Shown here one piece after another: positions 4,894 to 21,819 of a stretch of DNA of 64,000 nt; the first letter of the stretch is position 1, and every line of letters begins with the position of its first letter. The notes beneath the pieces are model-generated. The model ran no database searches, was not told where the DNA came from, and saw only the letters and a list, made by a program, of their open reading frames with translations. Origin of the DNA: Haloactinopolyspora alba (GTDB lineage Bacteria; Actinomycetota; Actinomycetes; Jiangellales; Jiangellaceae); the NCBI RefSeq assembly GCF_003014555.1, contig NZ_PYGE01000014.1, positions 1 through 64,000 on the forward strand. The letters are read 5' to 3'. Both the position numbers and the translations under genes were made by a program.

Positions 4894-4905
4894 GCAATAT
4901 ATTGC
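4894..4905. promoter_or_regulatory. Candidate GntR operator
   Basis: GCAATATATTGC is a perfect 12-bp palindrome and strikingly AT-rich for this genome. A related half-site (CAATAT on the complementary strand) occurs at 4913-4918. It lies between the divergent MFS and GntR genes. FCD-type GntR proteins commonly bind short AT-rich palindromes. Confidence 0.55.
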
Positions 4906-4932: not shown

Positions 4933-4938
4933 TATGTT
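4933..4938 (+). promoter_or_regulatory. -10 box before the GntR gene (leaderless start)
   Basis: TATGTT lies 6 nt before GTG 4945 and no Shine-Dalgarno sequence is present. This promoter would drive gntR and, by read-through and coupling, the whole operon behind it. Confidence 0.5.
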
Positions 4939-4944: not shown

Positions 4945-5622
4945 GTGTCCGGAGTGAAGCTGAACCGACTACGGCGGGTGTCCCTGCGCGAACGGGTGCT
5001 CACCGAGCTACAGGGCCACATCGTGTCGGGCACGTTCGCCCCCGGCCAGCGGCTGAACGACTCGGAGCTGGCCGAACAGCTCGGCGTCAGCCGCACGCCC
5101 GTGCGCGAGGCCCTGCAGCAACTTCAGGCCATGGGCCTGGTCGAGGCGATCCCGGGCGCGTCCACCAGAGTCACCGAGGTCGACGCGGCCGATGCGGCGG
5201 CCGTGTTCCCGGTCGTGGCCCAGCTGCACGCGCTGGCCACCAGGCTCGCCGTCGACGCGCTGACCGCCGCTGACGTCGAACGTCTGCACCGGCACAACGC
5301 CGACCTGCTCGAGGCGACCAAGTCCGGCGACCGCGACCGCATGATGGACGCCGACACCGCCTTCCACGACGTCTTCATCGAGCTGTCCGGCAACCCCGTC
5401 CTCGCCGAGCTGCTCGACCAGCTGACGCCGCGGGTGCGCAGATTCGAGTACGCGCTCTTCGACGATGCCGCCGGCCACGCCTCGGCGCACGACCACGAAC
5501 AGATCATCGCCGCGTGCGAGGCATCCGACGTCGGCCGGATCGGCGAGCTCGTCGAACGCAACTGGCTCAGCCTCGGCGACGACGTGGTCCGCCAGCTCAA
5601 GATCCAGGAGACGCCGTCGTGA
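4945..5622 (+). CDS. GntR-family regulator, FCD subgroup
   Basis: 225 residues. The N-terminal winged helix (RERVLTELQGHIVSGTFAPGQR, then LAEQLGVSRTPVREALQQLQAMGLV) is the GntR signature. The C-terminal all-helical FCD domain shows the metal/ligand-binding pattern (DADTAFHDVFIELSGNP and HEQIIAACEA). FCD regulators sense small organic acids, sugars acids or related metabolites. Its stop overlaps the GTG of the molybdenum hydroxylase gene (5619-5622), so it is the first gene of the 16-kb operon and very likely its local regulator. Confidence 0.92.
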   Translation: MSGVKLNRLRRVSLRERVLTELQGHIVSGTFAPGQRLNDSELAEQLGVSRTPVREALQQLQAMGLVEAIPGASTRVTEVDAADAAAVFPVVAQLHALATRLAVDALTAADVERLHRHNADLLEATKSGDRDRMMDADTAFHDVFIELSGNPVLAELLDQLTPRVRRFEYALFDDAAGHASAHDHEQIIAACEASDVGRIGELVERNWLSLGDDVVRQLKIQETPS

Positions 5623-7961
5623 CCCGGGAGACCACTCAGGGCACCTCGAGGGCTCCGGCGCACACCGGCGTCGTCGGCAGGTCCCTCCCGGCCGACGACG
5701 CGGCGGCGATCGTGGCGGGCGATCTCGAGTACGTCACCGACCGTCGGGTCGACGGCATGCTGCACGGAGCGGTCCATCGCTCGGCACACCCCCACGCCCG
5801 GATCGTCTCCGTCGACACCGCCCGGGCGGCCTCCGAGCCCGGCGTGGTGGCCGTGCTCACCGCCGGCGACGTGCCGTGCAATCAGCTCGGCACCGACTCG
5901 GAGAACGGCGCCGTGCTGGCCGGCGACGTCGTCCGCCAGGTCGGCGAGGCGATCGCCCTCGTCGCCGCGGCCGATCCCGAAACGGCGCGCCGGGCGGCCG
6001 ACCTGATCGAGGTCGGCTACGAGCCGCTGCCGGTCGTCGACGGACCGGACTCGCCCGCGCCCGTCACCGTGCACCCGCGGGGCAACGTCGCCGGCACCCT
6101 CACGTTCGAGTCGGGAGACGTCGCCACCGCTCTGTCGTCGTCGGACCTCGTCGTGGACGTCGACACGACCACGTCGGCGCAGGAGCACGTCGCCATCGAG
6201 ACGCCGGGCGGGATGGCCGAGTGGGATCTCGGCAAGATCACCGTCTGGTGCGGATCACAGAACCCGGGCCTGCACCGCAAGCTGGTGGCGCACGCGCTGC
6301 GCCTGAATCTCGACGACGTGCGGCTGGTCAGCAACCCCGTCGGCGGCGCGTTCGGGTCACGCAACGACGACCCCGCACCGGTGTACCTGGCGTTGCTCGC
6401 GTGGCACACCACCCGCCCCGTACACCTGCACCTGTCGCGGCGGGAGACGATCGTCGCCGGGCCGAAGCGGCACCCCTACCGCACGCGCGTCCGGCTCGGG
6501 TTCGACCGGGCGGGGACGCTGCGCGCGATCGACAGCCGGGCCGTCGCCGACACCGGGCCGTACGTGACCGCGGGCCGCAACGTCCTGAAGACCTCCGCCG
6601 AGCTGTCCAGCGGGCCGTACGCGGCGCCGAACGCGCGCTTCGACGGCACCGTCGCGTACTCGAACAACGCCAACGCCGGCGCGTTCCGTGGCTTCGGCGC
6701 GCCGCAGGTGGCGTTCGCGCTCGAGACCGCCGTCTCCGAAGCGGCGGTCGAGCTCGGCCTCGACCCGGTGCAGATCCGCCGCGCCAACCTGACCCGGCCG
6801 GGGGACGCACACAGCCTCTACGGGCACACCGTCAGCCGCAGCCTGCGCGCCAGCCAGACGCTCGACGCGGCGGCCGCGCATCCGTGGTGGCGCGACCGCG
6901 ACGCATGGGCCGCCGGTTCGGCCGGTCCCTGGCGCCGTGGCACCGGCATCGCGATGGCGATCAAGGGTGTCGGCATGGGCAGCGGGAAGGGCGACACGGC
7001 ACGGGCCCGGCTCATCGTCTCCGCCACCGGGACGGTCAACATCTGGGCCGGCCCCAACCACACCGGGCAGGCCATCGGCACGGCCTACCGGCAGATCGCG
7101 GCGGACACGCTCGGCATCGACCACGACCGGATCCGGGTGCACGTCGGCGACTCCGAGCTCGTGCCGGAGTCGGGCGCCACCGCGGCCTCGCGCAGCATGT
7201 ACGCCGGAGGCTCGGCGGTGCACCAGGTCTGCGGCCGGCTGCGTGCCGTGCTCGACGAGCCCGGTGTCGACACCGGGGCCTCGTTCGACGACGTCGCCGC
7301 GCATCTGGTGGCGTCCGGCCGCGCCGAGTACGAGGCCGAGTTCGTTCTCCCCGACGTCGACGACATCGGCCGGATCCCTCCCGAGGCGCTGGCCGACTAC
7401 GCGCCGCACGCGGTCTACGGGTGCAGTGCGCAGGTGGTCCGGCTGGAGGTGAACACGCTGACCGGTGAGATCAGGCTTCACGGCGTGGTGTGCGCGGTCG
7501 ACGCCGGCGTCGCGGTGAACCCCGGCGCCACGGTCGGGCAGGCCGAGGGCGGCGTCGCCCAGGGCGTCGGCTTCGCGCTGTTCGAGGAGTACCGGCTGGA
7601 CGCCGGCGTCCCGGTCACCACGAGCCTGGAGAACTATCTGATCCCCACGGCCATGGACGTTCCGCCCATCGAGACCGTTCTGGTCACCGGGCACGAGAAC
7701 ACCGGCCCGTTCGGCGCCAAGGGGATGTCCGAGGTGGTCGTCGTGCCGACCGCGCCGGCGATCGCGGCCGCCGTGGGATCCGCCACCGGCTTCTGGCCGC
7801 GGCACCTGCCGATGACGCCGGAGCGGGTGCGGGCCGGCCTGTCGGCGATGAGCGGCGAGGGGACGAGCGAGCGGAGTGGCCGGCGGAGCGCAGCGGAGCG
7901 AGCGAGGACCCGAGCGCGACCAGAGAACATGAGCGCCGAGCCCGCGGAGGGTGCGTCATGA
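5619..7961 (+). CDS. Molybdopterin-binding (large) subunit of a xanthine dehydrogenase-family hydroxylase
   Basis: A 780-residue subunit that would hold the molybdenum cofactor and substrate. An ald_Xan_dh_C-type domain (GDLEYVTDRR...VLTAGDVP) is followed by the Mo-binding domains. Landmarks are GSQNPGLHRK, the loop AGAFRGFGAPQ near residue 355, and GAKGMSE whose Glu (about residue 705) is the base in this family. The loop is of the xanthine/aldehyde-oxidoreductase type and lacks the Cys of CO dehydrogenase form I. GTG 5619 overlaps the gntR stop. The last ~35 residues are encoded by a low-complexity GAGCGAGCGGAG-type stretch (7858-7925) and look like an accretion on the normal C-terminus. 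The substrate is unknown. Confidence 0.9.
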   Translation: MTRETTQGTSRAPAHTGVVGRSLPADDAAAIVAGDLEYVTDRRVDGMLHGAVHRSAHPHARIVSVDTARAASEPGVVAVLTAGDVPCNQLGTDSENGAVLAGDVVRQVGEAIALVAAADPETARRAADLIEVGYEPLPVVDGPDSPAPVTVHPRGNVAGTLTFESGDVATALSSSDLVVDVDTTTSAQEHVAIETPGGMAEWDLGKITVWCGSQNPGLHRKLVAHALRLNLDDVRLVSNPVGGAFGSRNDDPAPVYLALLAWHTTRPVHLHLSRRETIVAGPKRHPYRTRVRLGFDRAGTLRAIDSRAVADTGPYVTAGRNVLKTSAELSSGPYAAPNARFDGTVAYSNNANAGAFRGFGAPQVAFALETAVSEAAVELGLDPVQIRRANLTRPGDAHSLYGHTVSRSLRASQTLDAAAAHPWWRDRDAWAAGSAGPWRRGTGIAMAIKGVGMGSGKGDTARARLIVSATGTVNIWAGPNHTGQAIGTAYRQIAADTLGIDHDRIRVHVGDSELVPESGATAASRSMYAGGSAVHQVCGRLRAVLDEPGVDTGASFDDVAAHLVASGRAEYEAEFVLPDVDDIGRIPPEALADYAPHAVYGCSAQVVRLEVNTLTGEIRLHGVVCAVDAGVAVNPGATVGQAEGGVAQGVGFALFEEYRLDAGVPVTTSLENYLIPTAMDVPPIETVLVTGHENTGPFGAKGMSEVVVVPTAPAIAAAVGSATGFWPRHLPMTPERVRAGLSAMSGEGTSERSGRRSAAERARTRARPENMSAEPAEGAS
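7858..7925. repeat. Low-complexity purine/GC repeat tract inside the 3' end of the Mo-subunit gene
   Basis: The tract is built from imperfect copies of GAGCGAGCGGAG and GAGCGCAGCGGAGCGAGCGAG, a style of dispersed intergenic repeat common in actinobacterial genomes. It is read in frame as an Arg/Ser/Glu-rich tail, so it extends the subunit beyond its expected end. Confidence 0.5.
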
Positions 7962-8425
7962 GCGGCGACAGCATGAGGGTGAACGGGACCCCGGCGCGCG
8001 GGCACGACCCCGGCGCGCGGCTGCTCGACGTGCTCCGTGACGACCTCGGCCTGCGCGGTGTCAAGGAGGGCTGCGGTATCGGCGAGTGCGGTAGCTGCAC
8101 CGTCCTGCTCGACGGCGAGCCGGTCTGTTCCTGCCTCGTGTTCGCCGGGCAGGCCGAGGGGCGCGACGTCGTCACCGCGGAGGGCCTCGCCCCGGCGGGC
8201 GAGCTCGGCCGCCTTCAGCAGGAGTTCGTCGACCACCAGGCGTTGCAGTGCGGCTACTGCATTCCCGGCGTCGTCGTGTCCGCGGCGGCCCACCTGGCCG
8301 GGGCGGACCACGTCGACGAGAGCAGCGTCCGCGAGGCCCTGTCCGGGAACCTGTGCCGTTGCACCGGGTACTCGAAGCTGGTGGCCGCCGTGCTCGCCAC
8401 GGCCGACGACGGGGACCAAGCATGA
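7958..8425 (+). CDS. [2Fe-2S]-binding small subunit of the molybdenum hydroxylase
   Basis: 155 residues, the usual size. The plant-type cluster uses C39, C44, C47 and C59 (CGIGECGSCTVLLDG...CSC). The all-helical second cluster uses C98, C101, C133 and C135 (CGYC and CRCTGY). It passes electrons from the molybdenum centre to the FAD subunit. The start overlaps the previous stop (ATGA at 7958-7961) and its own stop overlaps the next start, so the L-S-M subunits are made in stoichiometric order. Confidence 0.94.
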   Translation: MSGDSMRVNGTPARGHDPGARLLDVLRDDLGLRGVKEGCGIGECGSCTVLLDGEPVCSCLVFAGQAEGRDVVTAEGLAPAGELGRLQQEFVDHQALQCGYCIPGVVVSAAAHLAGADHVDESSVREALSGNLCRCTGYSKLVAAVLATADDGDQA

Positions 8426-9300
8426 CCGGCCGCGCCCTGGCCCGTGCCGACACGCCCGCGGCGGCGGATGCGCTCTGCGCCCGCGGCCGTCCGCTCGCCG
8501 GGGCCACCGACCTGCTGGTACACGGCCTGGACGGCGTGCGCGGCGAGCTGGTGGATCTCACCGCGATCCACGACCCGCGGCCACCGGTCGAGCGATTGGC
8601 GGACGGCCGCGTCCGGGTGTCGGCGACCGCACCGATCAGCGCGATCGCCCGCTCGCCGGAGCCGGTCCCGGTAGCGCTGACCGACGCCATCGCCCAGTTC
8701 GCCTCTCCGCAGATCCGCAACCGCGCCACCCTCGGCGGCAACATCGCCAACGGCTCACCCGCCGCGGACCTGGTGCCGCCGCTGGTCGTGACCGACGCCG
8801 TCCTCGGCGTGCGCGGCGCGGACGGACGCCGGTCGGTGCCCGTCGGCGAGATGCTGGCCGGCCCCGGGCGCACGACGCTGCGGCCGGGTGAGTGGATCGA
8901 GTACGCCGACCTCGCGCCGGTGCCGCACTCGGGTTTCCGCAAGCTCGGCTACCGCCGGGCACTGGCCGTCGCCGTCGTGAGTCTGGCGTGGTCGTGGTCG
9001 CCGGGTTCTCCCCGCTCCGGCACGGAGCCGGGCGGCGCCGTCGCGCTGCACGACGTCCGCCTCGCCGCGGGCGCGGTCGCACCGACCGTCGTGCGCTGCC
9101 CGCGCGCCGAAGCCGCCCTGAACACGCTCGACGCGACGTGCGTCGACACCGCGGCCACCGCCGTCCACGACGACATCGCGCCCATCGACGACCTGCGCGC
9201 AAGCGCCTGGTACCGCGCCGACGCACTGGCCGGACTGGTGCGAGAGCTTGCACCGGCCGCGACGCGGCAGCTACGAGAAGGGGACACCGCCCAGCCATGA
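8422..9300 (+). CDS. FAD-binding (medium) subunit of the molybdenum hydroxylase
   Basis: 292 residues of the CoxM/CutM type. Residues ~20-35 (ARGRPLAGATDLLVHG) form the first FAD motif. ATLGGNIANGSPAADLVPPLV near residue 110 is the TIGGN-like pyrophosphate-binding signature. The C-terminal CO_deh_flav_C domain follows. It accepts electrons from the Fe-S subunit and passes them to NAD or another carrier. ATGA overlaps at both ends couple it to the Fe-S subunit and to the flavin oxidoreductase gene. Confidence 0.93.
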   Translation: MTGRALARADTPAAADALCARGRPLAGATDLLVHGLDGVRGELVDLTAIHDPRPPVERLADGRVRVSATAPISAIARSPEPVPVALTDAIAQFASPQIRNRATLGGNIANGSPAADLVPPLVVTDAVLGVRGADGRRSVPVGEMLAGPGRTTLRPGEWIEYADLAPVPHSGFRKLGYRRALAVAVVSLAWSWSPGSPRSGTEPGGAVALHDVRLAAGAVAPTVVRCPRAEAALNTLDATCVDTAATAVHDDIAPIDDLRASAWYRADALAGLVRELAPAATRQLREGDTAQP

Positions 9301-10250
9301 GATACGGCATCACCATCCCGCTCGATCGACCGATCGGCCACGTCGGTGCCCTGGCGGCGCACGCCGAGAAGCTCGGTTTCGACGAGCTGTGGCTCGCCGA
9401 CCACTACTACAACCGCGACGTCGCGGTGGCCCTGACGCTGATGGCCGAGCACACCGAGACGCCGACCCTCGGCACCGCGGTGGCCAGCCCGTTCCTGCGT
9501 CACCCCACGCTGCTGGCGAGCCTCGCCGGGACCATCGGCGAGCTGGCCGGCGAGCGTTTCGTGCTCGGCCTCGGCAGCGGCGGCTACGAGTTCGGGCAGG
9601 AGATGGAGATCTCCATCAAGCGGCCGCTGGCCGCCATCGCGGAGTCCACCCGGATCGTCCGGGAGCTCCTGGCCGGCCGCGCCGACGTCGCCGGTGACGT
9701 CTTCAGCGCCCGTGGTTCCGCGCTGCGCTGGCCCGCCGCGCGCACCCCGGTCCACCTGGCCGCTCGCGGCCCGAAGATGCTGGCCCTGGCCGGTGAGATC
9801 GCCGACGGCGTCATCACCCACGGCATCTCGGACACGCACATCGACTACGTCCGCGACAAGACCGGCGGCGGCACCGACGTGTGCCTGATGCTCGACGTCG
9901 AGGTCGGCGACGACCAGCGCGGAGCCTACGAACGGCTGCGCCCCCGCTGCCTGATGATGGCCGGCGGCTCCTACGCGGACGAGCTGATCGACGTGTACGG
10001 GCTACCCCGCGACCAGGTCGCCGCACTGCGCGAGGCCGTGCGCACGGACGGGCGCGAACGCGCCGCCGAGCTGGTCACCGACGACATCGCCGCCGCGTTC
10101 GGCATCGCCGGGCCGGTCTCGCACGTCCGCGAACAGCTCGGCCGGCTCGACGCGCGCGGGGTCGACTCGGTCATCCTCTCCGTGGGTGGCGGCACGGCCG
10201 ACGAGGTCGCCGACCACATGACCCGTCTCGCCGAGGCGGTGCACGGATGA
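9297..10250 (+). CDS. LLM-class flavin- or F420-dependent oxidoreductase
   Basis: A 317-residue luciferase-like TIM-barrel protein. It begins YGITIPLDRP, with GFDELWLADHYY on the second strand/helix, LGTAVASPFLRHP, and ERFVLGLGSGGYEFGQEM in the middle. The overall look is that of methylene-tetrahydromethanopterin-reductase-like proteins that may use F420 or FMN. ATGA overlaps join it to the genes on both sides. It could reduce or mono-oxygenate an intermediate of the pathway; the cofactor cannot be decided from sequence. Confidence 0.88.
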   Translation: MRYGITIPLDRPIGHVGALAAHAEKLGFDELWLADHYYNRDVAVALTLMAEHTETPTLGTAVASPFLRHPTLLASLAGTIGELAGERFVLGLGSGGYEFGQEMEISIKRPLAAIAESTRIVRELLAGRADVAGDVFSARGSALRWPAARTPVHLAARGPKMLALAGEIADGVITHGISDTHIDYVRDKTGGGTDVCLMLDVEVGDDQRGAYERLRPRCLMMAGGSYADELIDVYGLPRDQVAALREAVRTDGRERAAELVTDDIAAAFGIAGPVSHVREQLGRLDARGVDSVILSVGGGTADEVADHMTRLAEAVHG

Positions 10251-11362
10251 GCGCGCTGCCCTCGACCGCCACCGTCCTCGGCTCCGGAGCCGGCGCGCTC
10301 GCCTGCACCGTCGAGCTGTCGCACCACGGCGTGGACGTGACGCTGGCCGACCTGCCGGCGTTCGCGTCCGGCCTCGACACGATCGCCGCCGCCGGGCAGG
10401 TCGTGCTGAAGACGCCGTGGCACGGCGCGGTGCCGGCACCCGTCGCAGCCACCAGCACCGACCCCGCCGCGGCCGTCGGCGGCGCCGAACTGATCGTCGT
10501 CTGCGTCCCGGCGTTCGGTCACACCACGTTCGCCGAGCTGCTCGCCGCGGCCGTCGTGGACGGTCAGCGGGTGCTGTGGGTCGGAGAAGGCGGCGGGAGT
10601 CTCGTGTTCGCCGACGCGCTGCGCCGCGCGGGCAGGCGCCCGGACGTCGAGATCGGCGAGACCAACAGCCTCCCGTACGGCGCGCGCGTCCGCGGGCCCG
10701 GCATCGTCAGCGCCTCCCGCAAGGCCGGCGGCACGCTGGTGTCGGTGCTCGGACCGGACCGCGGCCTGGTGGACACCGCCCGCGCGGTGTGGCCCTGGAT
10801 GTCGGCCGCCGACAACGTGTGGGAGACGGTCCTGCTGAACTTCAACGCCATCGACCACGTCCCCCCGATCATCTGCAACCTCGGCGTGGTCGAGGGCCGC
10901 AACGGCAAGATGCTCCTCTGGGGCGAGGGTGCGTCACCGAGTGTCGCGCGGATCATCGAGACCCTCGACGGCGAGCTGTTCGAGCTGCGGAAAGCCCTGG
11001 GTGTGCGTAACACGAAGCGCTACGCCGACTACCTCGTCGAGCAGGGGTTCGCCCCGGCCGGCACCTCGTCGTTCTTCGAGCTGCTGCAGGCCAGCACGTT
11101 CTCGGACAGCACCTTCCGGTGCGGGCCCGACGCGCTGTCCAGCCGGTACGTCACCGAGGACGTCCCCTACGCGCTGGTGCTGTTCTCCTCCATCGGCCGC
11201 GCCGTCGGCGTGCCCACCCCGACCGTCGACAGCCTGACCCACCTCGCGTCGATCGCGCTGGGCCGCGATCTGTTCGCCGAGGGCCGCACACTCGCCCGCG
11301 TCGGCCTGGACGGGCACGACCGGGACGGTCTCGTCGCCGCCGCCGAGGAGGGCTGGTGGTGA
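10247..11362 (+). CDS. NAD/NADP octopine/opine dehydrogenase-family protein
   Basis: 371 residues. The N-terminal Rossmann fold is unmistakable (ATVLGSGAGALACTVELSHHGVDVTLAD). The C-terminal helical domain resembles octopine/nopaline dehydrogenases: NFNAIDHVPPIICN contains the family's conserved His near the N-H-x-x-P pattern, followed by a Tyr/Asp-rich helix. These enzymes reversibly cleave or form secondary-amine dicarboxylates (opines) from an amino acid and an oxoacid. This suggests the pathway substrate may carry an N-linked carboxylic acid (inference). ATGA overlap upstream, GTGA overlap downstream. Confidence 0.85.
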   Translation: MSALPSTATVLGSGAGALACTVELSHHGVDVTLADLPAFASGLDTIAAAGQVVLKTPWHGAVPAPVAATSTDPAAAVGGAELIVVCVPAFGHTTFAELLAAAVVDGQRVLWVGEGGGSLVFADALRRAGRRPDVEIGETNSLPYGARVRGPGIVSASRKAGGTLVSVLGPDRGLVDTARAVWPWMSAADNVWETVLLNFNAIDHVPPIICNLGVVEGRNGKMLLWGEGASPSVARIIETLDGELFELRKALGVRNTKRYADYLVEQGFAPAGTSSFFELLQASTFSDSTFRCGPDALSSRYVTEDVPYALVLFSSIGRAVGVPTPTVDSLTHLASIALGRDLFAEGRTLARVGLDGHDRDGLVAAAEEGWW

Positions 11363-12717
11363 CCGGCGTCCGCCTCACCGGCGGCACGGTGCTGGCGGCG
11401 GACGGTGACACCGGAACCACGGACGTCACGGTGCGCACCGGCCCGTCCGCCGGTGCCGCGGAGGCGGCCGGCGACGTCGTCGACGTGACCGGGCAACTGG
11501 TCCTGCCCGGTCTCGCCAACGCCCACGATCACCTGCGCTCGCTCCTCCCGGCCACCCGCGAGGCGGAGACGATGCCGCTGCCGGCCATCATCGAGCGGGC
11601 CGGGGCGGCCGGCGCCGCCGCCACCGCCGAGCACTACCGCGACCTGACCGCCCAGGGCGCGGCCCGGATGGTCCTGTCCGGGGTGACCTCGGCGATCGAC
11701 CACATCTACCCGGTTCACGTCCCGGGCATGATCGAAGCGGCCGCCGCCGGCCACGATCGTGTCGGGCTGCGCGCGTCGCTGGCCGTCGGGCTCATGGACT
11801 CCGGTCATCCGGCCGTGCTGCAGGACCCCTCGGTGACCATCGACGACGTCGCCCGCATCGCCGACGACGCCGTACCCGCCGACCGGTTGTTCCTGGCTCC
11901 CGTCTCGCTGCGGCAGTCGTCGCCGGACGTCTACCGGGCGGCGGTGTCCGCCGCCGACCGGCTCGGGATGCGGCTGTACACCCATGTCGCCGAGTCGGCC
12001 GCGGAGGTCGACGCCTGCCTCGCCGAGCACGGCATGCGCCCGGTCGAACTGCTGCACTCGCTCGGGTTCCTGCGTCCGGGCACGGTGCTGGTCCACTGCG
12101 TGCACCTGGACGAGCGGGAGCGGCAGCTGGTTGCCGACACCGGCACGGCCGTGGCCTACTGCCCCTCGAACCATCTGCGCTTCGCGAAGGGATTCGCGCC
12201 GATACGAGACCTGATCGATCGTGGCGTCACCGTCGGGCTCGGCATCGACGGCATGGTGGACGGCTTCACCGAGATCCGGCAGGCCGTCTACGCCCAGGCG
12301 CAGGCCGCAGGAGCCACGGGTGTGCTGACCTCCGCCGAGGCGTTCCGGATGGCGACCACGGCCGCGGCGTCCCTCGCCAGCGGCGACCGTGCCGACCCCG
12401 CGGCCGACCCCACACCCGGCGCCTGGCCCGACGCCGTCGTCGCGTCCCCGAACCGTCTCGAACTACAGCCGGTCGCCGACCCGCTGTGGACCCTGATCCA
12501 CCGCATGACCGGCACCGACGTCACCGACGTCTACATCGGCGGCAAGGCCGTCGTCCGTGACGGACAGTTGACCCGAGTCAGCCATGACGAGGTAGCAGAG
12601 CGCGCCGCGGCGGCCACGGCCGCCATCGCCTCCGCAGCAGGCGTCGACCTCCGTCCCGGCGGTGAACACGCCGCCACCCCGCCCGGCCCGGCTGGGCAAC
12701 GTGCGAGTTCTCGATGA
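11359..12717 (+). CDS. Amidohydrolase (cytosine/8-oxoguanine-deaminase-like)
   Basis: A 452-residue metal-dependent hydrolase. The metal ligands are visible: HxH in LANAHDHLRS, His in YTHVAES, His in VHCVHL and Asp in LGIDGMVDG. This corresponds to the deaminase/chlorohydrolase branch (TrzN/AtzB, 8-oxoguanine deaminase). Two adjacent GTGs (11356, 11359) are possible starts; 11359 gives the GTGA overlap typical of this operon. It differs clearly from the second amidohydrolase at 18031, so the two probably act on different C-N or C-X bonds. Specificity unknown. Confidence 0.85.
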   Translation: MTGVRLTGGTVLAADGDTGTTDVTVRTGPSAGAAEAAGDVVDVTGQLVLPGLANAHDHLRSLLPATREAETMPLPAIIERAGAAGAAATAEHYRDLTAQGAARMVLSGVTSAIDHIYPVHVPGMIEAAAAGHDRVGLRASLAVGLMDSGHPAVLQDPSVTIDDVARIADDAVPADRLFLAPVSLRQSSPDVYRAAVSAADRLGMRLYTHVAESAAEVDACLAEHGMRPVELLHSLGFLRPGTVLVHCVHLDERERQLVADTGTAVAYCPSNHLRFAKGFAPIRDLIDRGVTVGLGIDGMVDGFTEIRQAVYAQAQAAGATGVLTSAEAFRMATTAAASLASGDRADPAADPTPGAWPDAVVASPNRLELQPVADPLWTLIHRMTGTDVTDVYIGGKAVVRDGQLTRVSHDEVAERAAAATAAIASAAGVDLRPGGEHAATPPGPAGQRASSR

Positions 12718-12733
12718 CACGAGGAGGCACCAC

Positions 12734-14062
12734 ATGACACGCAAGAGCAGCGTCGCCCTTGGACAGCACCGTGCCGGCAATCCGTTCGCCCTGGACAGGC
12801 GGCGGTTCCTCGGCCTCGGCGCCGGAGCGCTGGCCGGGGCCGCCCTGGCCGGCTGCGGCGGATCGTCGAGCACCGTGGGCTCCGGAAACGGAGGCAACGG
12901 CGGCAACGGTGGTGGTGGTGACAGTCTCACCGTGTGGGGCAGCAACGCCTGGTCCGAAGGCGACGCCCCGTTCGTGAAGGCTCTCGAGAACTACTCCGAC
13001 GCCGACGTCACGTTCGAACCGTTCCCCGCGAACGACCTCGTCAACAAGATCACCACCGCGATCAACGGCGGTGGCGGCCCGGACGTCATGCTCCTCGACG
13101 TCAGCCAGGTGACCCAGTTCGGCGCCTCCGGCCTGTTCGCCGACATCACCGACCGGTTCGCCCCGATGGCCGGTGACTTCTTCGAGGCCAACGTGCTGTC
13201 CGCGCAGTACGAGGGACGCCAGTACGCCGTCCCGTACGACACGAACAACGTCGGGCTGTTCTGGAACAAGCGGATGTTCTCCGAGGCCGGGATCGACGCC
13301 CCGCCGACGAGCTGGGAAGGCCTCCTCGACGCCGCGCTCGAGCTCACCCACGACGAGCAGTACGGCTTCATGATGGGCGCGCTGGGCTACGGCGCGTACC
13401 TGTGGTGGCCCTGGCTGTGGCAGAACGGCGGGCGGATCCTCACCGACGACCTCACCAAGGCCGCGTTCAACGACGACGCGGGCCGTGAGGCGTGGCAGTT
13501 CTACGCCGACCTCAACCTGGTCCACGGCGTCGTGCCGCCGACCTTCCTCACCGTCACCCAGTCGTGGGACGCCTACACCGACCCGTTCGTGACCGAGAAG
13601 GTCGCGATGATGACCACAGGCGGCTGGGGGATCGCCTCGATCGACGCGATCAACCCCGAGCTCGAGTACGCCGTCGCTCCACTGCCCAGCAGGGACCGCA
13701 GCGCGACCGTCGTCGGTGGCAACGCGCTGGCCGTGTCCGCCGAGTCGGCCAACGCGGACGCGGCCTGGAAGCTGATCGAGTACCTGGTCAGCTCCGAGCA
13801 GCGCTCGGTCCTCGAGGGTGTGTCCCGGATGTCCGCCCGGCGCGACGTGCTCGAGACCGACTACGTGCAGGGCGACCCGACCCGGCAGACGTTCGCCGAG
13901 CAGGCCGAGGTCGCCGTCGCGCGTCCGTCCATCCCGAACTGGGGCGAGATCGAGTGGGGCGTCATGGCCGAGACGTGGGACAGCGTCATCCACGAGAAGG
14001 CCGCACCGCTCGATGCGCTCGCGCAGGCACAGACCCGGGTCGACAAGGTGCTGGCCGGCTAG
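12734..14062 (+). CDS. Sugar-type ABC transporter substrate-binding lipoprotein
   Basis: 442 residues. An RRRFLGLGAGALAGAALAGC signal has a twin-arginine-like start and a lipobox with Cys41, so the mature protein should be lipid-anchored outside the membrane. A Ser/Gly/Asn-rich linker precedes the solute-binding fold of the family that binds oligosaccharides and polyols (TVWGSNAW..., PYDTNNVGLFWNKRMF, MMTTGGWGIASI). GAGGAGG at 12721-12727 is a good ribosome site 6 nt before ATG 12734. It is the first gene after the only small gap in the operon and is followed by two permeases. Confidence 0.93.
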   Translation: MTRKSSVALGQHRAGNPFALDRRRFLGLGAGALAGAALAGCGGSSSTVGSGNGGNGGNGGGGDSLTVWGSNAWSEGDAPFVKALENYSDADVTFEPFPANDLVNKITTAINGGGGPDVMLLDVSQVTQFGASGLFADITDRFAPMAGDFFEANVLSAQYEGRQYAVPYDTNNVGLFWNKRMFSEAGIDAPPTSWEGLLDAALELTHDEQYGFMMGALGYGAYLWWPWLWQNGGRILTDDLTKAAFNDDAGREAWQFYADLNLVHGVVPPTFLTVTQSWDAYTDPFVTEKVAMMTTGGWGIASIDAINPELEYAVAPLPSRDRSATVVGGNALAVSAESANADAAWKLIEYLVSSEQRSVLEGVSRMSARRDVLETDYVQGDPTRQTFAEQAEVAVARPSIPNWGEIEWGVMAETWDSVIHEKAAPLDALAQAQTRVDKVLAG

Positions 14063-14095
14063 AACCGGAGGTCCTCCGATACGGGGGTTCGACAT

Positions 14096-15034
14096 ATGAC
14101 CGTGACCACGCCTGTCCGCGACTCCGCTTCGCGGCCGCCGCCGGCGCAGCAGCGCCCGATCCCGCTGCGCCGGCGGCTCACCCCGTTCGCGTTCGTCGCA
14201 CCGGCCGTCGTGATGCTCGTGATCATGCTCGCGTACCCGGTCGGGAACGCGATCTGGACGAGCTTCAACCACGAGGTCGCCACCGAGCCCGGCCAGGGCG
14301 AGTTCGTCGGGCTCGACAACTTCCGGGCCGTGTTCGGCGACCCCGACTTCGCCGGCACCGCGGTCAGGAGCGTGCTGTGGGTGTTCGGCAACCTGGTCCT
14401 CCAGGTGCTCGTCGGACTCGTCATCGCCTCGGTGCTGAACCAGCGGATGCGCGCCCGCGCGGTGGTGCGCAGCGTCGTCATCATCCCGTGGGTCGTGCCG
14501 ACCGTCGTCGTCGCGCTCATGTGGCGGTTCATGCTGGACCCTTCCAGCGGCCCGCTGAACGAACTGCTGCTGTCCACGGGCGTGGTCAGCGAGCCACCGC
14601 TGTGGCTGGCCGACACCGAGCTGGCGTTTCCCGTGCTGATCCTGATCAGTGTCTGGAAGTGGACCCCGTTCGTCGCGGTCATCCTGCTGGCGGGTCTGCA
14701 GTCGGTGCCGGACGAGGTGCGTGAGGCGGCCCTGATCGACGGCGCGACGATGTTCCAGCGGTTCCGTTACGTCATCATGCCGCACATCAGCACCAGCATC
14801 GCGATGGCCAGCGTCCTCACCATCGCGTACTCGATCAACAACTTCGCCGGCATCTGGCTGTTCACCCGCGGCGGCCCGGCGGGGAGCACCGAGACGCTGA
14901 CCACCCTGGCCTACAGGTACGCGTTCCAGGCGTTCGACTTCGGCAGAGCCTCCGCCGTGGCGGTCGTCCTGTTCGTCTTCGTGTTCCTGGTCAGCTGCGT
15001 GTACTTCTACATCGTCGAGGGGAGGCGGAGATGA
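14096..15034 (+). CDS. Sugar-type ABC transporter permease (MalF-like)
   Basis: A 312-residue membrane protein of the binding-protein-dependent family, with about six transmembrane segments. The cytoplasmic EAA loop is visible as EVREAALIDGATMFQRFRYVIMPHI near residue 205-230. The start ATG lies 33 bp after the binding-protein stop. It overlaps the next permease by ATGA at 15031-15034. With its partner it forms the importer channel. No ATPase gene is present in the cluster; a shared ATPase of the MsiK type elsewhere in the genome would be normal for an actinobacterium. Confidence 0.94.
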   Translation: MTVTTPVRDSASRPPPAQQRPIPLRRRLTPFAFVAPAVVMLVIMLAYPVGNAIWTSFNHEVATEPGQGEFVGLDNFRAVFGDPDFAGTAVRSVLWVFGNLVLQVLVGLVIASVLNQRMRARAVVRSVVIIPWVVPTVVVALMWRFMLDPSSGPLNELLLSTGVVSEPPLWLADTELAFPVLILISVWKWTPFVAVILLAGLQSVPDEVREAALIDGATMFQRFRYVIMPHISTSIAMASVLTIAYSINNFAGIWLFTRGGPAGSTETLTTLAYRYAFQAFDFGRASAVAVVLFVFVFLVSCVYFYIVEGRRR

Positions 15035-15867
15035 ACGCACACGCATCCCACCCCCGCCTGCGCCGGACCGGGCTGTACGCGCTGGTCGCCGTGGTCCTCG
15101 CGACCGTGCTCGTCCCGTTCGGGTGGATGGTGCTCTCGAGCTTCAAGACGCCGGCCGAGATCCGCGGCCTCACGGACAGCTGGCTGCCCGGCGGGCTGTA
15201 CCTGGGCAACTACCAGGGACTGCAGGACACGTCGTTCGTCACCTACTTCGTCAACAGCATGGTCATCGCCGTCGGCACCACGTCGATCGCGATCCTGATC
15301 GCCGTGCTGGCCGGCTACGGCCTGGCCCGGTTCAACTTCGTCGGCAACCGGATGCTGCTGATCGCCATCGTGACGATGCAGATGTTCCCCGCCGTGCTGC
15401 TGGCGGTGCCGCTGTACAAGATGCTCAGCACGGCCCAGCTGCTGGACACACGGGTCGGGCTGGTCGTCGTCTACACCACGTTCGCGATGCCGTTCTGCAT
15501 CTGGATGCTGCGCAACTACTTCCTCACCGTGCCCGTCGAGGTGGAGGAGTCCGCGATGATCGACGGCTGCAACCGCCTCACCGCGCTGTGGCGGGTCGTG
15601 CTGCCACCGACGATGCCGGCGGTCGCGGCGGCCGCCGCGTTCTGCGTGATCCAGGTGTGGGAGGAGTTCCTGTACGCGAACACGTTCATCGACTCCGACG
15701 AACTGCGGCCGCTCTCGGTCGGGCTGAACTCACTGATCGGGCAGTACTCCACCGAGTGGGGACGGCTGATGGCTGCCGGAGTGCTGATGGTGATCCCGGT
15801 GGTGCTGATCTTCGCGTTCCTGCAACGGTTCCTCACCCAACTCGCCGGGGGCTCGGTCAAGGGATGA
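15031..15867 (+). CDS. Sugar-type ABC transporter permease (MalG-like)
   Basis: 278 residues, typical length for this subunit. It starts with RTGLYALVAVVLATVLVPFGWMVLSSFK, has about six membrane segments, and carries the EAA loop VEVEESAMIDGCNRLTALW near residue 170-190. ATGA overlaps join it to the upstream permease and to the downstream enolase-family gene. It pairs with the MalF-like permease in the importer. Confidence 0.94.
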   Translation: MNAHASHPRLRRTGLYALVAVVLATVLVPFGWMVLSSFKTPAEIRGLTDSWLPGGLYLGNYQGLQDTSFVTYFVNSMVIAVGTTSIAILIAVLAGYGLARFNFVGNRMLLIAIVTMQMFPAVLLAVPLYKMLSTAQLLDTRVGLVVVYTTFAMPFCIWMLRNYFLTVPVEVEESAMIDGCNRLTALWRVVLPPTMPAVAAAAAFCVIQVWEEFLYANTFIDSDELRPLSVGLNSLIGQYSTEWGRLMAAGVLMVIPVVLIFAFLQRFLTQLAGGSVKG

Positions 15868-17063
15868 GAATCACCGACGTCCGATGCGTGCGCTACACCG
15901 GCGAGCTGCACCATCCCGAGCCGTTCTGGCCCGAGCGGCTGCGGCGCCCCACCGACGCGTACCCGGAGTTCGCCGCGACCGGCCCCGTCGACCTGCCGCG
16001 CACCGGGCCGGGCCGCTACCGGGTCGAGAGCATCTTCCTGCACATCGACACCGACGAGGGCGTCACCGGGTCGACGGCGCACATCTCCGCCGACCAGGCG
16101 CACATCATCAACGCCACGCTGCGCCGGCTTCTCCTCGGGGCCGACCCGCTGGCGACGGAACGGATCTGGGACATCGGGCGCCGCTCGTCCATCCATGCGC
16201 GGCGCGGCGCCGGAATGCTCGCCCTGTCCGCCGTGGACTGCGCGCTGTGGGACATCCGCGGCCGGCGTTTCGGGGTTCCGTGCCACGTCCTGCTCGGCGG
16301 GCCGACCAGGCAGCGTGTCCCGGTCTACGTGTCGACGCTCGGGACGCCGCTCGATCACGACACCGTCCGGCGCGTCACCCGCGAGGTCGTCGACTCCGGG
16401 GCGAAGGGCGTCAAGTGGTTCCCCCGATGGGGACCGCCGGACGGGCAGGCAGGGGTGCGTGCCGTCGCCGAGCTGGTCGAGACCGTGCGGGCCGAGGCCG
16501 GCGACGACCTCGAGATCATGCTGGACGCGTGGAGCTCGTGGGACGTCGAGTTCACCGTGAACGTGGCCCGGGCCTGCCGCGACCTGCGGCTGCGCTGGAT
16601 CGAGGAGCCGCTCGACACCGACGACATCGGGGGCTACCGTCGGGTACGCGATCTGCTCGGCCGCACCGGCAGCACGGTCGCCGTCGCCGGCGGCGAGCAC
16701 GAGTACGGCCGATGGGGGTTCGCCGGGCTGGTCGCTGACGGCGTCTTCGACGTCTGTCAGCCGGACCCGCACTGGGCCGGTGGGATCAGCGAAGTGACCA
16801 AGATCGGCGCGATCCTCGGCGCGGCGGGCGTGCCGATGGTTCCGCACGGGCAGTCCCTGCAGTGCAACGCCGCGCTGGCGTTCGCCACGTCGCCGCATCT
16901 CACCCCGGAGATGGAGTACCTCGCCAAGCTGGGCCCGCTCTACCAGCACTTCCTCGCGGAGCCGATCGCGCCCTCCGGCGGCATGATCGACGTGCCCTCG
17001 CAGCCCGGCCTGGGCATGGAGCTGGACCAGGACCGAATCGTCGACGCGGAGCCCTTGCCATGA
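15864..17063 (+). CDS. Enolase-superfamily (mandelate racemase/muconate lactonizing) enzyme, L-rhamnonate-dehydratase-like
   Basis: 399 residues. The N-terminal capping domain is followed by a TIM barrel. The lysine motif AKGVKWFPRWGPPDG, the metal ligands Asp (IMLDAWSSW), Glu (RWIEEPL) and Glu (AGGEHEYG), and a late active-site His (VPHGQSLQ) are all present. KWFxRxGPxDG plus GEHEYxRxGF are features of the rhamnonate dehydratase subgroup, so dehydration of a sugar acid is the best guess; a racemase or cycloisomerase is possible. ATGA overlaps on both sides. Its presence suggests that a polyhydroxy acid is an intermediate of the operon's pathway. Confidence 0.88.
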   Translation: MRITDVRCVRYTGELHHPEPFWPERLRRPTDAYPEFAATGPVDLPRTGPGRYRVESIFLHIDTDEGVTGSTAHISADQAHIINATLRRLLLGADPLATERIWDIGRRSSIHARRGAGMLALSAVDCALWDIRGRRFGVPCHVLLGGPTRQRVPVYVSTLGTPLDHDTVRRVTREVVDSGAKGVKWFPRWGPPDGQAGVRAVAELVETVRAEAGDDLEIMLDAWSSWDVEFTVNVARACRDLRLRWIEEPLDTDDIGGYRRVRDLLGRTGSTVAVAGGEHEYGRWGFAGLVADGVFDVCQPDPHWAGGISEVTKIGAILGAAGVPMVPHGQSLQCNAALAFATSPHLTPEMEYLAKLGPLYQHFLAEPIAPSGGMIDVPSQPGLGMELDQDRIVDAEPLP

Positions 17064-18034
17064 CCGGCGCGATACCCAGCACACCGGTGGTGGCGTCGCT
17101 GTGGCGCTACGACGCCGACACGGTCGGCGCGATGGCCGCACCACACGGCGTCAGCGTGCTCGAACCGTCGCCGGGGGTCGCCACCACGGATCTCGTGCGC
17201 AACGCCGACATCGTGCTGGCCGACCCGTCCGGCGAGCGGGCCCTCACCGGTGACGTCATCGCGGCGATGCGCAACTGCCGGCTGATCCAGCAGCCGTCGG
17301 TGGGCCTCGACACCATCGACCTCGCCGCCGCGGCGGCGCACGGCGTGCCGGTGGCGAACACGGCCGGCAGTAACAGCCGGTCGGTGGCCGAGTGGGTACT
17401 GATGGCCACGATGACGCTGTTGCGCGACGCCCACCGCTCCCACGCGGCGATGGCCGACGGCGACTGGCCGCGCCCGGACCCCGGTCGCGAGCTCGGCGCA
17501 CTGACCGTCGGGCTGGTCGGCATGGGCGGCACCGCCCGCGCGGTGGCGCACCTGCTGGCCGGGGTCGGTTCTCCGGTGCTCTTCCACCACCGCAGGTCCT
17601 GCGCGGACCCTCCGGACGGTGCGCGCCAGGTGCCGCTCGACGAGCTGCTGCGCGACAGTGACGTCGTCAGCCTGCACGTGCCGCTCGGACCGGCCACCAC
17701 CGGACTGCTCGGCGCCGACCGGCTCTCGCTCATGAAGACCGACGCGGTCCTGGTCAACACCAGCCGCGGACCGGTGGTCGACGAAGCGGCCCTGGTCGAC
17801 TGGCTCGCCGCCGCCCCGGACCGGAGGGCGGCCCTCGACGTGTTCGACGTGGAGCCGCTGCCGCCGCGTTCTCCGTTGCGGTCCACCGCGCAGGTGCTGC
17901 TCAGCCCGCATGCGGCGGCGCGGACCGTCGACGCCCGCCGTCGCCTCGACGACGTGGTGGCGCAGAACCTGCGACGCGCGCTGTCCGGGCGCGAGATCCT
18001 GCACCTGGTCGACACTGCCGGAGGCCCGTCATGA
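17060..18034 (+). CDS. D-isomer-specific 2-hydroxyacid dehydrogenase family protein
   Basis: 324 residues. The NAD-binding domain has GLVGMGGTARAVAHLLAG near residue 150 (GxGxxG variant GMGGTA). The catalytic region shows SRGPVVDEAALVDWL and a late PLPPRSPLRS...LSPHAA, whose His is the family base. The substrate domain contains VGLDTIDLAAAAAHGVPVANTAG, typical of the family. It could reduce a 2-oxoacid produced by the enolase-type dehydratase. ATGA overlaps join it to both neighbours. Confidence 0.9.
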   Translation: MTGAIPSTPVVASLWRYDADTVGAMAAPHGVSVLEPSPGVATTDLVRNADIVLADPSGERALTGDVIAAMRNCRLIQQPSVGLDTIDLAAAAAHGVPVANTAGSNSRSVAEWVLMATMTLLRDAHRSHAAMADGDWPRPDPGRELGALTVGLVGMGGTARAVAHLLAGVGSPVLFHHRRSCADPPDGARQVPLDELLRDSDVVSLHVPLGPATTGLLGADRLSLMKTDAVLVNTSRGPVVDEAALVDWLAAAPDRRAALDVFDVEPLPPRSPLRSTAQVLLSPHAAARTVDARRRLDDVVAQNLRRALSGREILHLVDTAGGPS

Positions 18035-19410
18035 GCAGTCTGCGTCTGCACTCCATCGACCTGCTGGCGACCATGACCGGCGCGGAGATCGGCGACGGCG
18101 CCCTGCTGGTCCGCGACGGCTGGATCGAGAAGATCGGCACGACCAGCGAGATCACGGACGCGGCCGACGAGTCCGTCGACCTGTCCGGGCACGTGGTGCT
18201 GCCCGGCCTGGTGAACACCCATCAGCACCTCTGGCAGAGCCTGGCCAGAGCCGTGCCGGCCGCGCAGGACGCGGCGCTCGTCGACTGGCTCATGGCGCTG
18301 TTCCCGCTGTGGGAGAAGCTGACACCCGACGGCGTCCGGACGGCCGGGCGGCTGGGCGCCGCCGGGCTGGCGCTGTCCGGGTGTACGACCGTCGCCGACC
18401 ACCACTACGTGTGGCCGAACGGCATCCGGATGGACGACCTCGTCGACGGCGTCGCGCCGGTCGGTGTCCGCGCCCATCTCACCCGCGGCGGCATGAGCGT
18501 CGGCGCGTCGCAGGGCGGCCTGGCCGCCGACGTGCTGACCGAGCGCGAGGACGCCATCGTCGACGCGACCGAACGGGCCGTCAGCGCGTTCCACGACCCC
18601 GAGGCCGGCGCCATGATGCGCATCGCCGCCGGCCCGCCGTCCGTCCTGTCCACGTCGGCGGAGCTGATGCGCGAACTGGGCGCGCTGGCGCGCGAGCACG
18701 GCATCGGACTGCACACGCACCTCGCCGAGACCGCCGGCGAGTCCGAGCGGTGCGTGGCGGCCGTGGGCGCGCCCGCCCTGCCCTACCTCGAGTCGCTCGG
18801 CTGGAGCGGAGAGCACGTGTGGTTCGCGCACGCGGTGCACCTCGCCCCGGACGAGATCCGGTCGCTGGCGGGGTCCGGAACCGGGGTCGCGCACTGCCCG
18901 ACCTCGAACATGCGCCTGGGGTCCGGGATCGCCCCGCTCGGCGAGTTCCTCCGAGAGGGCGTCCGGGTCGGCCTGGGCGTCGACGGCGCGGCGTCCAACG
19001 ACTCGACCGACATGTTCGCCGAGGTGCGGCAGGCGATGCTGCTCGCCCGGGTCATGGCAGGAATGAAGGGAATGGGGGGAATACGGCATGGTTCCGCCGG
19101 GCACCGCCTGCTGACCGCCCGCCAGATGCTGCGCCTGGCCACCGCGGGCGGCGCCGAGGTGCTGAGCCGTGACGACATCGGCACGCTCGCGCCGGGCAAG
19201 GCCGCCGACATCGTCGCCGTCGACCTCGACCGGCTGCGCTTCGCCGGTCAACACGACCCGCTGGCCGCACTGGTCCTCTGCGGCACCGCACACGTCGACC
19301 AGTCGTGGGTGCACGGGCGCCGGGTGGTCGAGGACGGGCGACTGCGCACCGTCGACGTCGACGAGCTGACCGCCGAGCATCGGGCCCGGTCGGCGGAGCT
19401 GACGGCATGA
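18031..19410 (+). CDS. 8-oxoguanine deaminase-like amidohydrolase
   Basis: 459 residues, the family length. It has NTHQHLWQSLARAVPAAQDA, which carries the HxH metal ligands and the 'AxPAAQDA' stretch of the TrzN/8-oxoguanine deaminase group. A later metal His is in HTHLAETAGES, another in HAVHLAPDE, and GVDGAASNDSTDM gives the metal Asp. The C-terminus has the usual GTLAPGKAADIVAVDLD. 8-oxoguanine deaminase turns 8-oxoguanine into urate and ammonia; related s-triazine or isocytosine deaminases are alternatives. In this operon the natural substrate may be another amino-heterocycle. ATGA overlaps on both sides. Confidence 0.87.
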   Translation: MSSLRLHSIDLLATMTGAEIGDGALLVRDGWIEKIGTTSEITDAADESVDLSGHVVLPGLVNTHQHLWQSLARAVPAAQDAALVDWLMALFPLWEKLTPDGVRTAGRLGAAGLALSGCTTVADHHYVWPNGIRMDDLVDGVAPVGVRAHLTRGGMSVGASQGGLAADVLTEREDAIVDATERAVSAFHDPEAGAMMRIAAGPPSVLSTSAELMRELGALAREHGIGLHTHLAETAGESERCVAAVGAPALPYLESLGWSGEHVWFAHAVHLAPDEIRSLAGSGTGVAHCPTSNMRLGSGIAPLGEFLREGVRVGLGVDGAASNDSTDMFAEVRQAMLLARVMAGMKGMGGIRHGSAGHRLLTARQMLRLATAGGAEVLSRDDIGTLAPGKAADIVAVDLDRLRFAGQHDPLAALVLCGTAHVDQSWVHGRRVVEDGRLRTVDVDELTAEHRARSAELTA

Positions 19411-21083
19411 CCGCCGCCACGTCCGGCATCCGCGAGCTGCTGGCCTTCGTCTACGACGGACGGACCGCCGACGACCTCGCCGACCGGCTCGAGAAGCGCT
19501 ACCCGGTCGCCGTGAACGACCGGCGGGTCCGGTTCGACAGCGCGGACGCCGTTCTCATCAGCTACGCCGACACCGTCCGGAACGGGCCGGTTCCGCCGCT
19601 GCGGACGCTGCGGCGGGTCGTCGGCGAGCACGCGCCGGAGTACACCCACCTGCACGTGCTGCCGTTCTTCCCGTCCTCCGGCGACGGCGGCTTCTCGGTC
19701 ACCGACTTCACCGCCGTCGACCCGGCCCACGGCACGTGGGACGACGTGACCGCCCTGGCCGGCGACCGGCGGCTCATGGTCGACCTGGTGCTCAACCACG
19801 TGTCCGCGGAGTCGGCGTGGTTCCGCCGGTTCCTGGCCGGCGACGCCGAACACGCCGGCTGGTTCCACGTCGTCGACCCGGCCGCCGACCTGAGCGCGGT
19901 CTTCCGGCCACGCACGCACCCGCTGCTCACCCGTTTCGAGACCGCCGACGGCCCGGCGCACGTGTGGACCACGTTCTCCGCCGACCAGGTCGACCTCGAC
20001 TTCTCCAACCCCGCGGTCCTGGAGGCGGTCCTGGACGTGCTGGCCGGATACGTCGCGAACGGCGCCCGGATGCTGCGCCTGGACGCGGTCGGGTTCGTCT
20101 GGAAGGAGCTCGGCACACCGTGCCTGCACCACCCGAAGACGCACGCCATCGTCAAGCTCGTCCGCGCCTTCCTGGACCGGATCGCCCCGGGTGTCCAGGT
20201 GGTCACCGAGACCAACGTGCCGCACGCGGACAACGTCGCCTACTTCGGCGACGGCCACGACGAAGCACAGATGGTGTACAACTTCTCGCTGCCGCCGCTG
20301 GTGCTCGACGCGTTCACCCGCGGCAGCGCCGCTGACCTGTCGAACTGGGCGGCGAACCTGCAGACACCGGGCGAGACGACGTTCTTCAACTTCCTCGCCT
20401 CCCACGACGGCATCGGCATGACACCCGCCTCGCCGATCATCGGGCCCGAGCGGGTGGCCGCCCTCGCCGAGCGCGCTCGCCGGCTCGGCGGTGACTGGTC
20501 CGGGCGGACGACCGACGACGGGACCGTCGTGCCGTACGAGCTGAACATCAACTACGCCGACGCACTCGCCGACCACCCCGGCCAGGACGGGCGCGAGATC
20601 GCCGGACGGATGCTGGCGGCGGCGTCCATCCAGTTCGCCCTGCAGGGCGTGCCGGGGGTCTACATCCACAGTCACCTCGGGTCGCGTTCGTGGCGGGACG
20701 GACCGTCGGTGACGGCGGAGAGGCGCTCGATCAACCGGGAACGGCTCGCCCTGGACCGGCTCGACGCGGAGCTGGCCGATCCCCGCGGCGCGCGGGCCGT
20801 GACGGTCGAGGGTCATCGCCGGCTGCTGCGAGCCCGCCGCGACCACCCGGCGTTCGACCCGTACACGCCGCATCACGTCGAGCCGGTCGATCCGCGCGTG
20901 TTCTCGCTGATCAGGCAGAACGAGCACGGCGAGATGTGGTGCGTCACGAACGTGTCGGCCGGCACGGTGGACGTCGACTCGTTACCCGGCTGGGCCCGGC
21001 GCCGGGACGTCCTCACCGGACGGACCGAAACGGGCCGGGTCGAGCTCGGGCCGTACGAGTACCGCTGGTACCGGCGGTCGTGA
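19407..21083 (+). CDS. GH13_18 glycoside phosphorylase (sucrose/glucosylglycerate phosphorylase-like)
   Basis: A 558-residue alpha-amylase-fold enzyme. Visible conserved regions are DLVLNHVSAES (region I), RMLRLDAVGFVWKE with the nucleophile Asp (II), VVTETNVPH with the acid/base Glu (III) and FLASHDGIGM (IV). The C-terminus lacks a starch-binding domain. It resembles sucrose phosphorylases, but sucrose phosphorylases are usually ~490-505 residues; 558 fits the longer glucosylglycerate phosphorylase branch such as E. coli YcjM, whose operon also carries a binding protein and two permeases. It would phosphorolyse an imported glucoside. Last gene of the operon; start overlaps the previous stop. 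Confidence 0.87.
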   Translation: MTAATSGIRELLAFVYDGRTADDLADRLEKRYPVAVNDRRVRFDSADAVLISYADTVRNGPVPPLRTLRRVVGEHAPEYTHLHVLPFFPSSGDGGFSVTDFTAVDPAHGTWDDVTALAGDRRLMVDLVLNHVSAESAWFRRFLAGDAEHAGWFHVVDPAADLSAVFRPRTHPLLTRFETADGPAHVWTTFSADQVDLDFSNPAVLEAVLDVLAGYVANGARMLRLDAVGFVWKELGTPCLHHPKTHAIVKLVRAFLDRIAPGVQVVTETNVPHADNVAYFGDGHDEAQMVYNFSLPPLVLDAFTRGSAADLSNWAANLQTPGETTFFNFLASHDGIGMTPASPIIGPERVAALAERARRLGGDWSGRTTDDGTVVPYELNINYADALADHPGQDGREIAGRMLAAASIQFALQGVPGVYIHSHLGSRSWRDGPSVTAERRSINRERLALDRLDAELADPRGARAVTVEGHRRLLRARRDHPAFDPYTPHHVEPVDPRVFSLIRQNEHGEMWCVTNVSAGTVDVDSLPGWARRRDVLTGRTETGRVELGPYEYRWYRRS

Positions 21084-21750: not shown

Positions 21751-21806
21751 GAGCACATCCTTGTCGATGCGGTCGGCAGCGCGCCCGCCGGGCAGCCGAG
21801 TGCGGT

Positions 21807-21812
21807 TATTCT
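21807..21812 (+). promoter_or_regulatory. -10 box for aldO (leaderless)
   Basis: TATTCT lies 7 nt before GTG 21820, and no ribosome-binding site is present in between. Confidence 0.4.
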
Positions 21813-21819
21813 TCCCGGC

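Follow-up and report, generated by a model that had tools for sequence, protein, structure and literature searches.

A coupled run of 14 genes in Haloactinopolyspora alba, together with a divergent MFS transporter gene, tentatively represents one GntR-controlled catabolic pathway for a compound that bears a glucosylglycerate unit and an aminated N-heterocycle. We prefer this reading, with a confidence somewhat short of even. The genes lie in a window of 64,000 nucleotides, which is the whole stretch of DNA that was analysed. The first-pass annotation had proposed that the gene set matches no known catabolic pathway, and this was borne out: no described pathway matched, and the literature searched held no description of the pathway or of its substrate.

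Architecture, regulation and conservation of the operon

The run had been described as 14 translationally coupled frames from 4945 to 21083, and this description holds. All 14 open frames were confirmed in a same-strand run on the forward strand, with a start-stop spacing of -4 (ATGA or GTGA type) at 11 of 13 junctions, and gaps of 16 before the binding-protein gene and of 33 before the gene for permease 1. A scan of the 14-gene run detected no terminator-like site on the coding strand. The enzyme families named earlier agree with both Pfam and NCBIfam. The run opens with a GntR-family regulator (4945-5622; NCBIfam GntR-type models), and the divergent MFS gene precedes it on the reverse strand (3663-4850; Pfam MFS_1, E=2e-29), in a frame that is open to 4907 with a probable start at 4850. 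A sugar-type importer is encoded by the genes for a substrate-binding lipoprotein (12734-14062), which matches maltose-type binding proteins in NCBIfam and the PDB, and for permease 1 (14096-15034) and permease 2 (15031-15867), both assigned from position and conserved order. An ATPase gene for this importer was found in none of the four operon copies, and we assume that a shared genomic ATPase is used.

The region between the MFS and gntR genes contains a perfect palindrome, GCAATATATTGC (4894-4905), as a candidate GntR operator. P. limicola (see below) has the counterpart CCAATATATTGG at the equivalent place, with the outer pair altered on both sides, and the second species of the window's genus has the imperfect counterpart GCAATATATCGG. 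The window's genome and that of P. limicola each contain the shared sequence SCAATATATTGS a single time, in both cases between MFS and gntR, against an expected count of about 0.07-0.08. The GntR regulator probably binds the palindrome. A putative -10 element, TATGTT (4933-4938, forward strand), ends 6 bases before the gntR start and is conserved in an alignment of three genomes; a sigma-70 consensus scan found no promoter. The gntR transcript may well be leaderless.

The operon is carried in Jiangellaceae by the window's genome (G000), by Phytoactinopolyspora limicola HAJB-30 (G008) and by a second species of the window's genus (G001). In P. limicola, the 14 genes and the divergent MFS gene occur in identical order with 64-81% protein identity (74% for the regulator, 78% for either permease). 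In the second species, the same genes are split over two short contigs, with 66-92% identity (81% for the regulator, 85% and 92% for permeases 1 and 2). The -4 overlaps are found at nearly every matching junction in both genomes, and the two gaps recur at matching junctions (17 and 45 in P. limicola, 17 and 35 in the second species). A chance origin of the overlaps is rejected because the pattern recurs in four genomes. Above the limits used, window ORFs outside the MFS-to-GH13 block had no match in P. limicola, with roughly 15-25 kb considered on each side, which argues for conservation of the block as a whole. The earlier claim of a single unit is thus supported by conserved synteny, by the lack of syntenic flanks in P. 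limicola and by the single operator. We also checked whether homologues occur only apart in related genomes, and found the core set together in four genomes from two families. Judged from these comparisons, the 14 genes form one conserved unit, to which the divergent MFS gene also belongs.

Several neighbours lie outside the unit. Upstream (788-3588) are genes for a WYL-domain regulator and for an exporter pair of the ABC-2 type, made up of a DrrA-like ATPase and a membrane protein. Directly past the operon, an N6_N4_Mtase DNA-methylase-like ORF is present on the reverse strand (21100-21954), and does not adjoin the operon in P. limicola. Further downstream (23135-26786), a beta-propeller protein (PF09826) and a DUF885 protein are encoded, which have no known link to the operon.

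Candidate enzymes for the glucoside, acid and heterocycle parts

The glucoside-cleaving step is the best defined. Glucosylglycerate phosphorylases are marked by a TETN-type (T/S)ETN motif at strand 5 and a Glu in loop A (PMC7178133). The GH13 enzyme of the window (19407-21083) and its counterparts in the other two Jiangellaceae share TETN with E. coli YcjM, and this motif is absent from sucrose phosphorylases. Their loop A reads PYELN (with the Glu), versus YQ (Gln) in sucrose phosphorylases. In a tree of 11 sequences, with long branches and an unresolved inner order, the GH13 enzyme clusters with YcjM and a Meiothermus enzyme (glucosylglycerate-type cluster), apart from the sucrose phosphorylases, with a support of 100/100. 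Sucrose phosphorylase was rejected as an assignment, with a score of 155 versus a cut-off of 334 and absent signatures. The earlier claim of an alpha-glucoside phosphorylase is thus supported, and the signatures narrow it: by signatures and grouping, the enzyme is of the glucosylglycerate phosphorylase type (GH13_18, EC 2.4.1.352). Given the small tree and its long branch, the acceptor may be a related 2-hydroxyacid. A glycerate kinase is encoded elsewhere in the genome, as in all seven genomes checked, and free D-glycerate could therefore be used. On a Paroceanicella profunda plasmid (L066:22271-30233), a set of ring-hydroxylating dioxygenase, dihydroorotate-dehydrogenase-like and xanthine-dehydrogenase-like genes lies near a GH13_18 phosphorylase of the glucosylglycerate type, which may be a coincidence.

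The acid part may involve a D-2-hydroxyacid dehydrogenase (HADH, 17060-18034; Pfam 2-Hacid_dh, 2-Hacid_dh_C) and an enolase-superfamily, acid-sugar dehydratase-like protein (MLE, 15864-17063; Pfam MR_MLE_N, MR_MLE_C). MLE reaches 185 bits with the L-rhamnonate dehydratase model, under the NCBIfam equivalog cut-off of 393. Plasmid relatives of MLE (Pantoea, Rhizobium) are about 42% identical and have unrelated gene contexts. The opine-type dehydrogenase (ODH, 10247-11362; Pfam Octopine_DH, PF02317) matches N-(1-D-carboxyethyl)-L-norvaline dehydrogenase (1bg6) over residues 7-366 with E=2.5e-37, and appears suited to the oxidation of a secondary amine or hydroxyacid. Searches of plasmids and of other Actinomycetota gave relatives of ODH with 28-35% identity, and those of their neighbourhoods that were read were uninformative.

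The molybdenum hydroxylase consists of XdhL (molybdenum-cofactor subunit, 5619-7961; Pfam MoCoBD_1, MoCoBD_2, Ald_Xan_dh_C), XdhS (2Fe-2S subunit, 7958-8425; Fer2, Fer2_2) and XdhM (FAD subunit, 8422-9300; FAD_binding_5, CO_deh_flav_C). XdhL retains the Glu of the GxxGxxE active-site motif, scores 472 bits with the PucD model, under the cut-off of 784, and is about 34% identical to enzymes from purine clusters. The deaminase AH2 (18031-19410) passes the NCBIfam equivalog for 8-oxoguanine deaminase (NF006055; 545 vs 532 bits). Alignment places HQHLWQ of AH2 and HDHLRS of AH1 at the HxHxxQ position. A Gln is important in the active site of the guanine-deaminase cluster (PMC12828455), and presumably corresponds to the last residue of this motif, which AH2 keeps. 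In other actinobacteria, relatives of AH2 are encoded next to xanthine dehydrogenase, in clusters with uricase or allantoicase genes, which suggests a purine-like ancestry of Xdh and AH2. The earlier proposal that a deaminase and a molybdenum hydroxylase act on an N-heterocycle is supported. Uricase (PF01014) was not detected by profile search, which does not cover FAD-type urate hydroxylase, in the three Jiangellaceae carriers, and it is present in the relatives G002 and G007. Classical oxidative purine catabolism in the carriers was rejected because of this absence.

The second amidohydrolase, AH1 (11359-12717; Pfam Amidohydro_1), is by alignment a subtype-III enzyme without the guanine-deaminase Gln. 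It reaches no NCBIfam cut-off, and scores 102 bits with the SsnA model TIGR03314 (cut-off 456). Its structure model, with a pLDDT of 53, was of insufficient quality for use, and its plasmid relatives are about 30% identical. For the LLM protein (9297-10250), the family given by the first-pass annotation stands, and can be sharpened from a generic oxidoreductase. The best model is the equivalog for methylenetetrahydromethanopterin reductase (Mer), with 175 bits, below the cut-off of 276. The predicted fold has a pLDDT of 81, and its top 14 PDB matches are all F420-dependent enzymes, with Mer first and FMN monooxygenases later. The modelled fold places the protein among reductases of the F420-dependent type, as a luciferase-like hydride transferase. 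All four copies have Thr at residue 6 (alignment; window 9297-9330), and the Mer structure 8qq8 is an E6Q mutant; the active-site Glu of Mer seems to be missing here. Close relatives of MLE, LLM and AH1 were absent from nearly all other genomes searched, which were samples; the collection scan with AH1 used two short peptide patterns.

The search with the LLM protein yielded one further carrier genome, G718, from a different family of the same class. In its operon, the order XdhL-XdhS-XdhM-LLM-ODH-AH1, binding protein, permease 1, permease 2, then MLE-HADH, is kept at 47-62% identity, core junctions are mostly -4, and the same two gaps are present (11 and 66). GH13, AH2 and gntR are not found at this operon. 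It encodes a glucosylglycerate hydrolase (NF047898, 590 vs a cut-off of 550), a CodA-type deaminase and an F420-reducing G6P dehydrogenase (Fgd; TIGR03554, 466 vs 420). The exchange of the phosphorylase for an unrelated hydrolase gives strong and independent support to the view that the glucosylglycerate bond belongs to the pathway. Likewise, the exchange of a guanine-type for a CodA-type deaminase supports a ring deamination step, and the additional Fgd gene favours F420 as the LLM cofactor. Among the substrates reported for the two deaminase clusters, isocytosine alone is common to both (PMC12828455). Genes for a DUF6986 protein (HpcH/HpaI aldolase-like) and a malic enzyme lie near the variant operon (L123:8741-11473), and DUF6986 is also present in the actinobacterial purine clusters L094 and L096.

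Proposed pathway and rival readings

According to the preferred reading, the importer and the shared ATPase would take up a compound with an alpha-glucosyl-glycerate unit. Phosphorolysis by the GH13_18 enzyme would release glucose-1-phosphate and D-glycerate or a close 2-hydroxyacid, and HADH and MLE would handle the acid part. AH2 would deaminate the N-heterocycle part, the molybdenum hydroxylase would oxidise the ring, the F420-dependent LLM protein would reduce it, AH1 would open it or hydrolyse it further, and ODH would oxidise the resulting secondary amine or hydroxyacid. By analogy with the reductive uric-acid pathway (see below), the heterocycle is probably broken down in a stepwise and reductive manner, and reductive dearomatisation followed by hydrolysis is suggested. 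We infer the enzyme activities, the order of steps and the presence of sugar acid and heterocycle in one molecule. Literature searches retrieved no compound or cluster that joins glucosylglycerate to an N-heterocycle, and we know of no such compound. Against a single pathway, guanine-type and CodA-type deaminases prefer different rings, and D-glycerate alone would require no acid-sugar dehydratase such as MLE. Of the earlier interpretation, the single unit, the glucoside phosphorylase and the N-heterocycle enzymes thus stand, but an opine as the substrate of ODH, a single molecule and a concrete substrate are unsupported.

The operon could instead serve two separate nutrients under joint control: the compatible solute glucosylglycerate would supply carbon, and nitrogen would come from a free base of the purine or pyrimidine kind, both being set free together when cells lyse or are under nitrogen stress. 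Mycobacteria use glucosylglycerate as a solute under nitrogen starvation (PMC6608630), AH2 and Xdh resemble purine-cluster enzymes, and around a constant core both the glucoside-cleaving gene and the deaminase gene can be exchanged. However, the operon has a single binding-protein importer (the base might enter through the MFS transporter), neither known route has a place for MLE, ODH or AH1, and the combination has been kept across two families. We regard two nutrients as an unlikely explanation, albeit one to be taken seriously. A pure purine route, with Xdh, F420 reductase and amidohydrolase acting on urate or 8-oxopurines as an actinobacterial reductive uric-acid pathway and the sugar genes as passengers, appears improbable. 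The published pathway does combine a reductase with an XDH homologue and the amidohydrolase SsnA, with a putative F420-dependent luciferase-family reductase in Chloroflexota variants (PMC12507026), and the missing uricase of the Jiangellaceae carriers would fit. However, AH1 falls far under the SsnA cut-off, genes of the HyuA, YgeW, UacY, YgeY and YgeX type are absent from the operon, and all four copies have a sugar importer and an enzyme that cleaves glucosylglycerate, the latter exchanged for an isofunctional one in G718.

Two further readings are very improbable. Biopterin glucoside is a known cyanobacterial compound, and a pterin alpha-glucoside of this kind could lose its glucose to the GH13 enzyme, be hydroxylated by Xdh and be deaminated at the 2-amino-4-oxo ring by AH2, with the LLM protein acting on the reduced pterin. 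The proximity of the LLM protein to Mer would agree with this, as would the match of AH2 to 2paj, which we take to be an isoxanthopterin deaminase. But AH2 scores higher as an 8-oxoguanine deaminase, the GH13 signatures fit a glycerate acceptor, G718 substitutes a glucosylglycerate hydrolase, and its CodA-type replacement is a poor fit to a pterin. There is similarly little to expect from a biosynthetic or detoxifying cluster for secondary-metabolite modification, although the MFS protein of the unit is possibly an exporter, and secondary metabolism, too, makes use of F420 reductases and molybdenum hydroxylases. Assembly enzymes, ligases and glycosyltransferases are absent, importer genes are present, and each of the four copies is dominated by hydrolases, phosphorylase and deaminases.

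The operon offers a compact set of orphan enzymes tied to a known bond type, namely AH1, ODH, MLE and LLM, for which the genomes searched held few close relatives or none. If the pathway is confirmed, a catabolic role would be added for F420. The two swaps in G718 (phosphorylase for hydrolase, guanine-type for cytosine-type deaminase) are a natural experiment that narrows the substrate. The operon would then suggest an unrecognised natural glucosylglycerate conjugate, or a joint programme of carbon and nitrogen scavenging.

Relation to known systems

The operon shares single elements with several known systems. ODH matches N-(1-D-carboxyethyl)-L-norvaline dehydrogenase over the full length, whereas ODH relatives elsewhere lie near unrelated transporters. 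Actinobacterial purine clusters have in common with the operon a three-subunit Xdh beside an AH2-like deaminase (46-48% identity), but differ in XdhL (only about 34% identical) and in the uricase, which the three carriers lack.

The glucosylglycerate clusters (E. coli ycj, Meiothermus) combine a YcjM-type phosphorylase or a GH63 hydrolase with a CUT1 importer, and share with the operon the importer and the phosphorylase with TETN and loop-A Glu. In Meiothermus, the phosphorylase lies beside a glycosidase of the trehalase family that shares 37% identity with the G718 hydrolase, and these two enzyme types interchange in the operons described here. The glucosylglycerate clusters that were read lack a molybdenum hydroxylase, an F420-type LLM protein, amidohydrolases and an opine-type dehydrogenase, all of which are present in the operon.

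The reductive uric-acid pathway (XdhD, YgfK/UacX or an F420-type reductase, SsnA, HyuA; PMC12507026) shares the trio of molybdenum hydroxylase, F420-type LLM protein and amidohydrolase. Its pairing of an XDH homologue with a reductase (F420-type in some phyla) is present in the form of the Xdh subunits and the LLM protein. However, the AH1 of the operon is not SsnA, and Pfam and NCBIfam identify none of HyuA, YgeW, UacY, YgeY and YgeX among the operon genes. Membership in this pathway was rejected, since SsnA and the downstream genes are missing. The operon differs from it in that the trio is linked with a sugar importer and an enzyme that cleaves glucosylglycerate.
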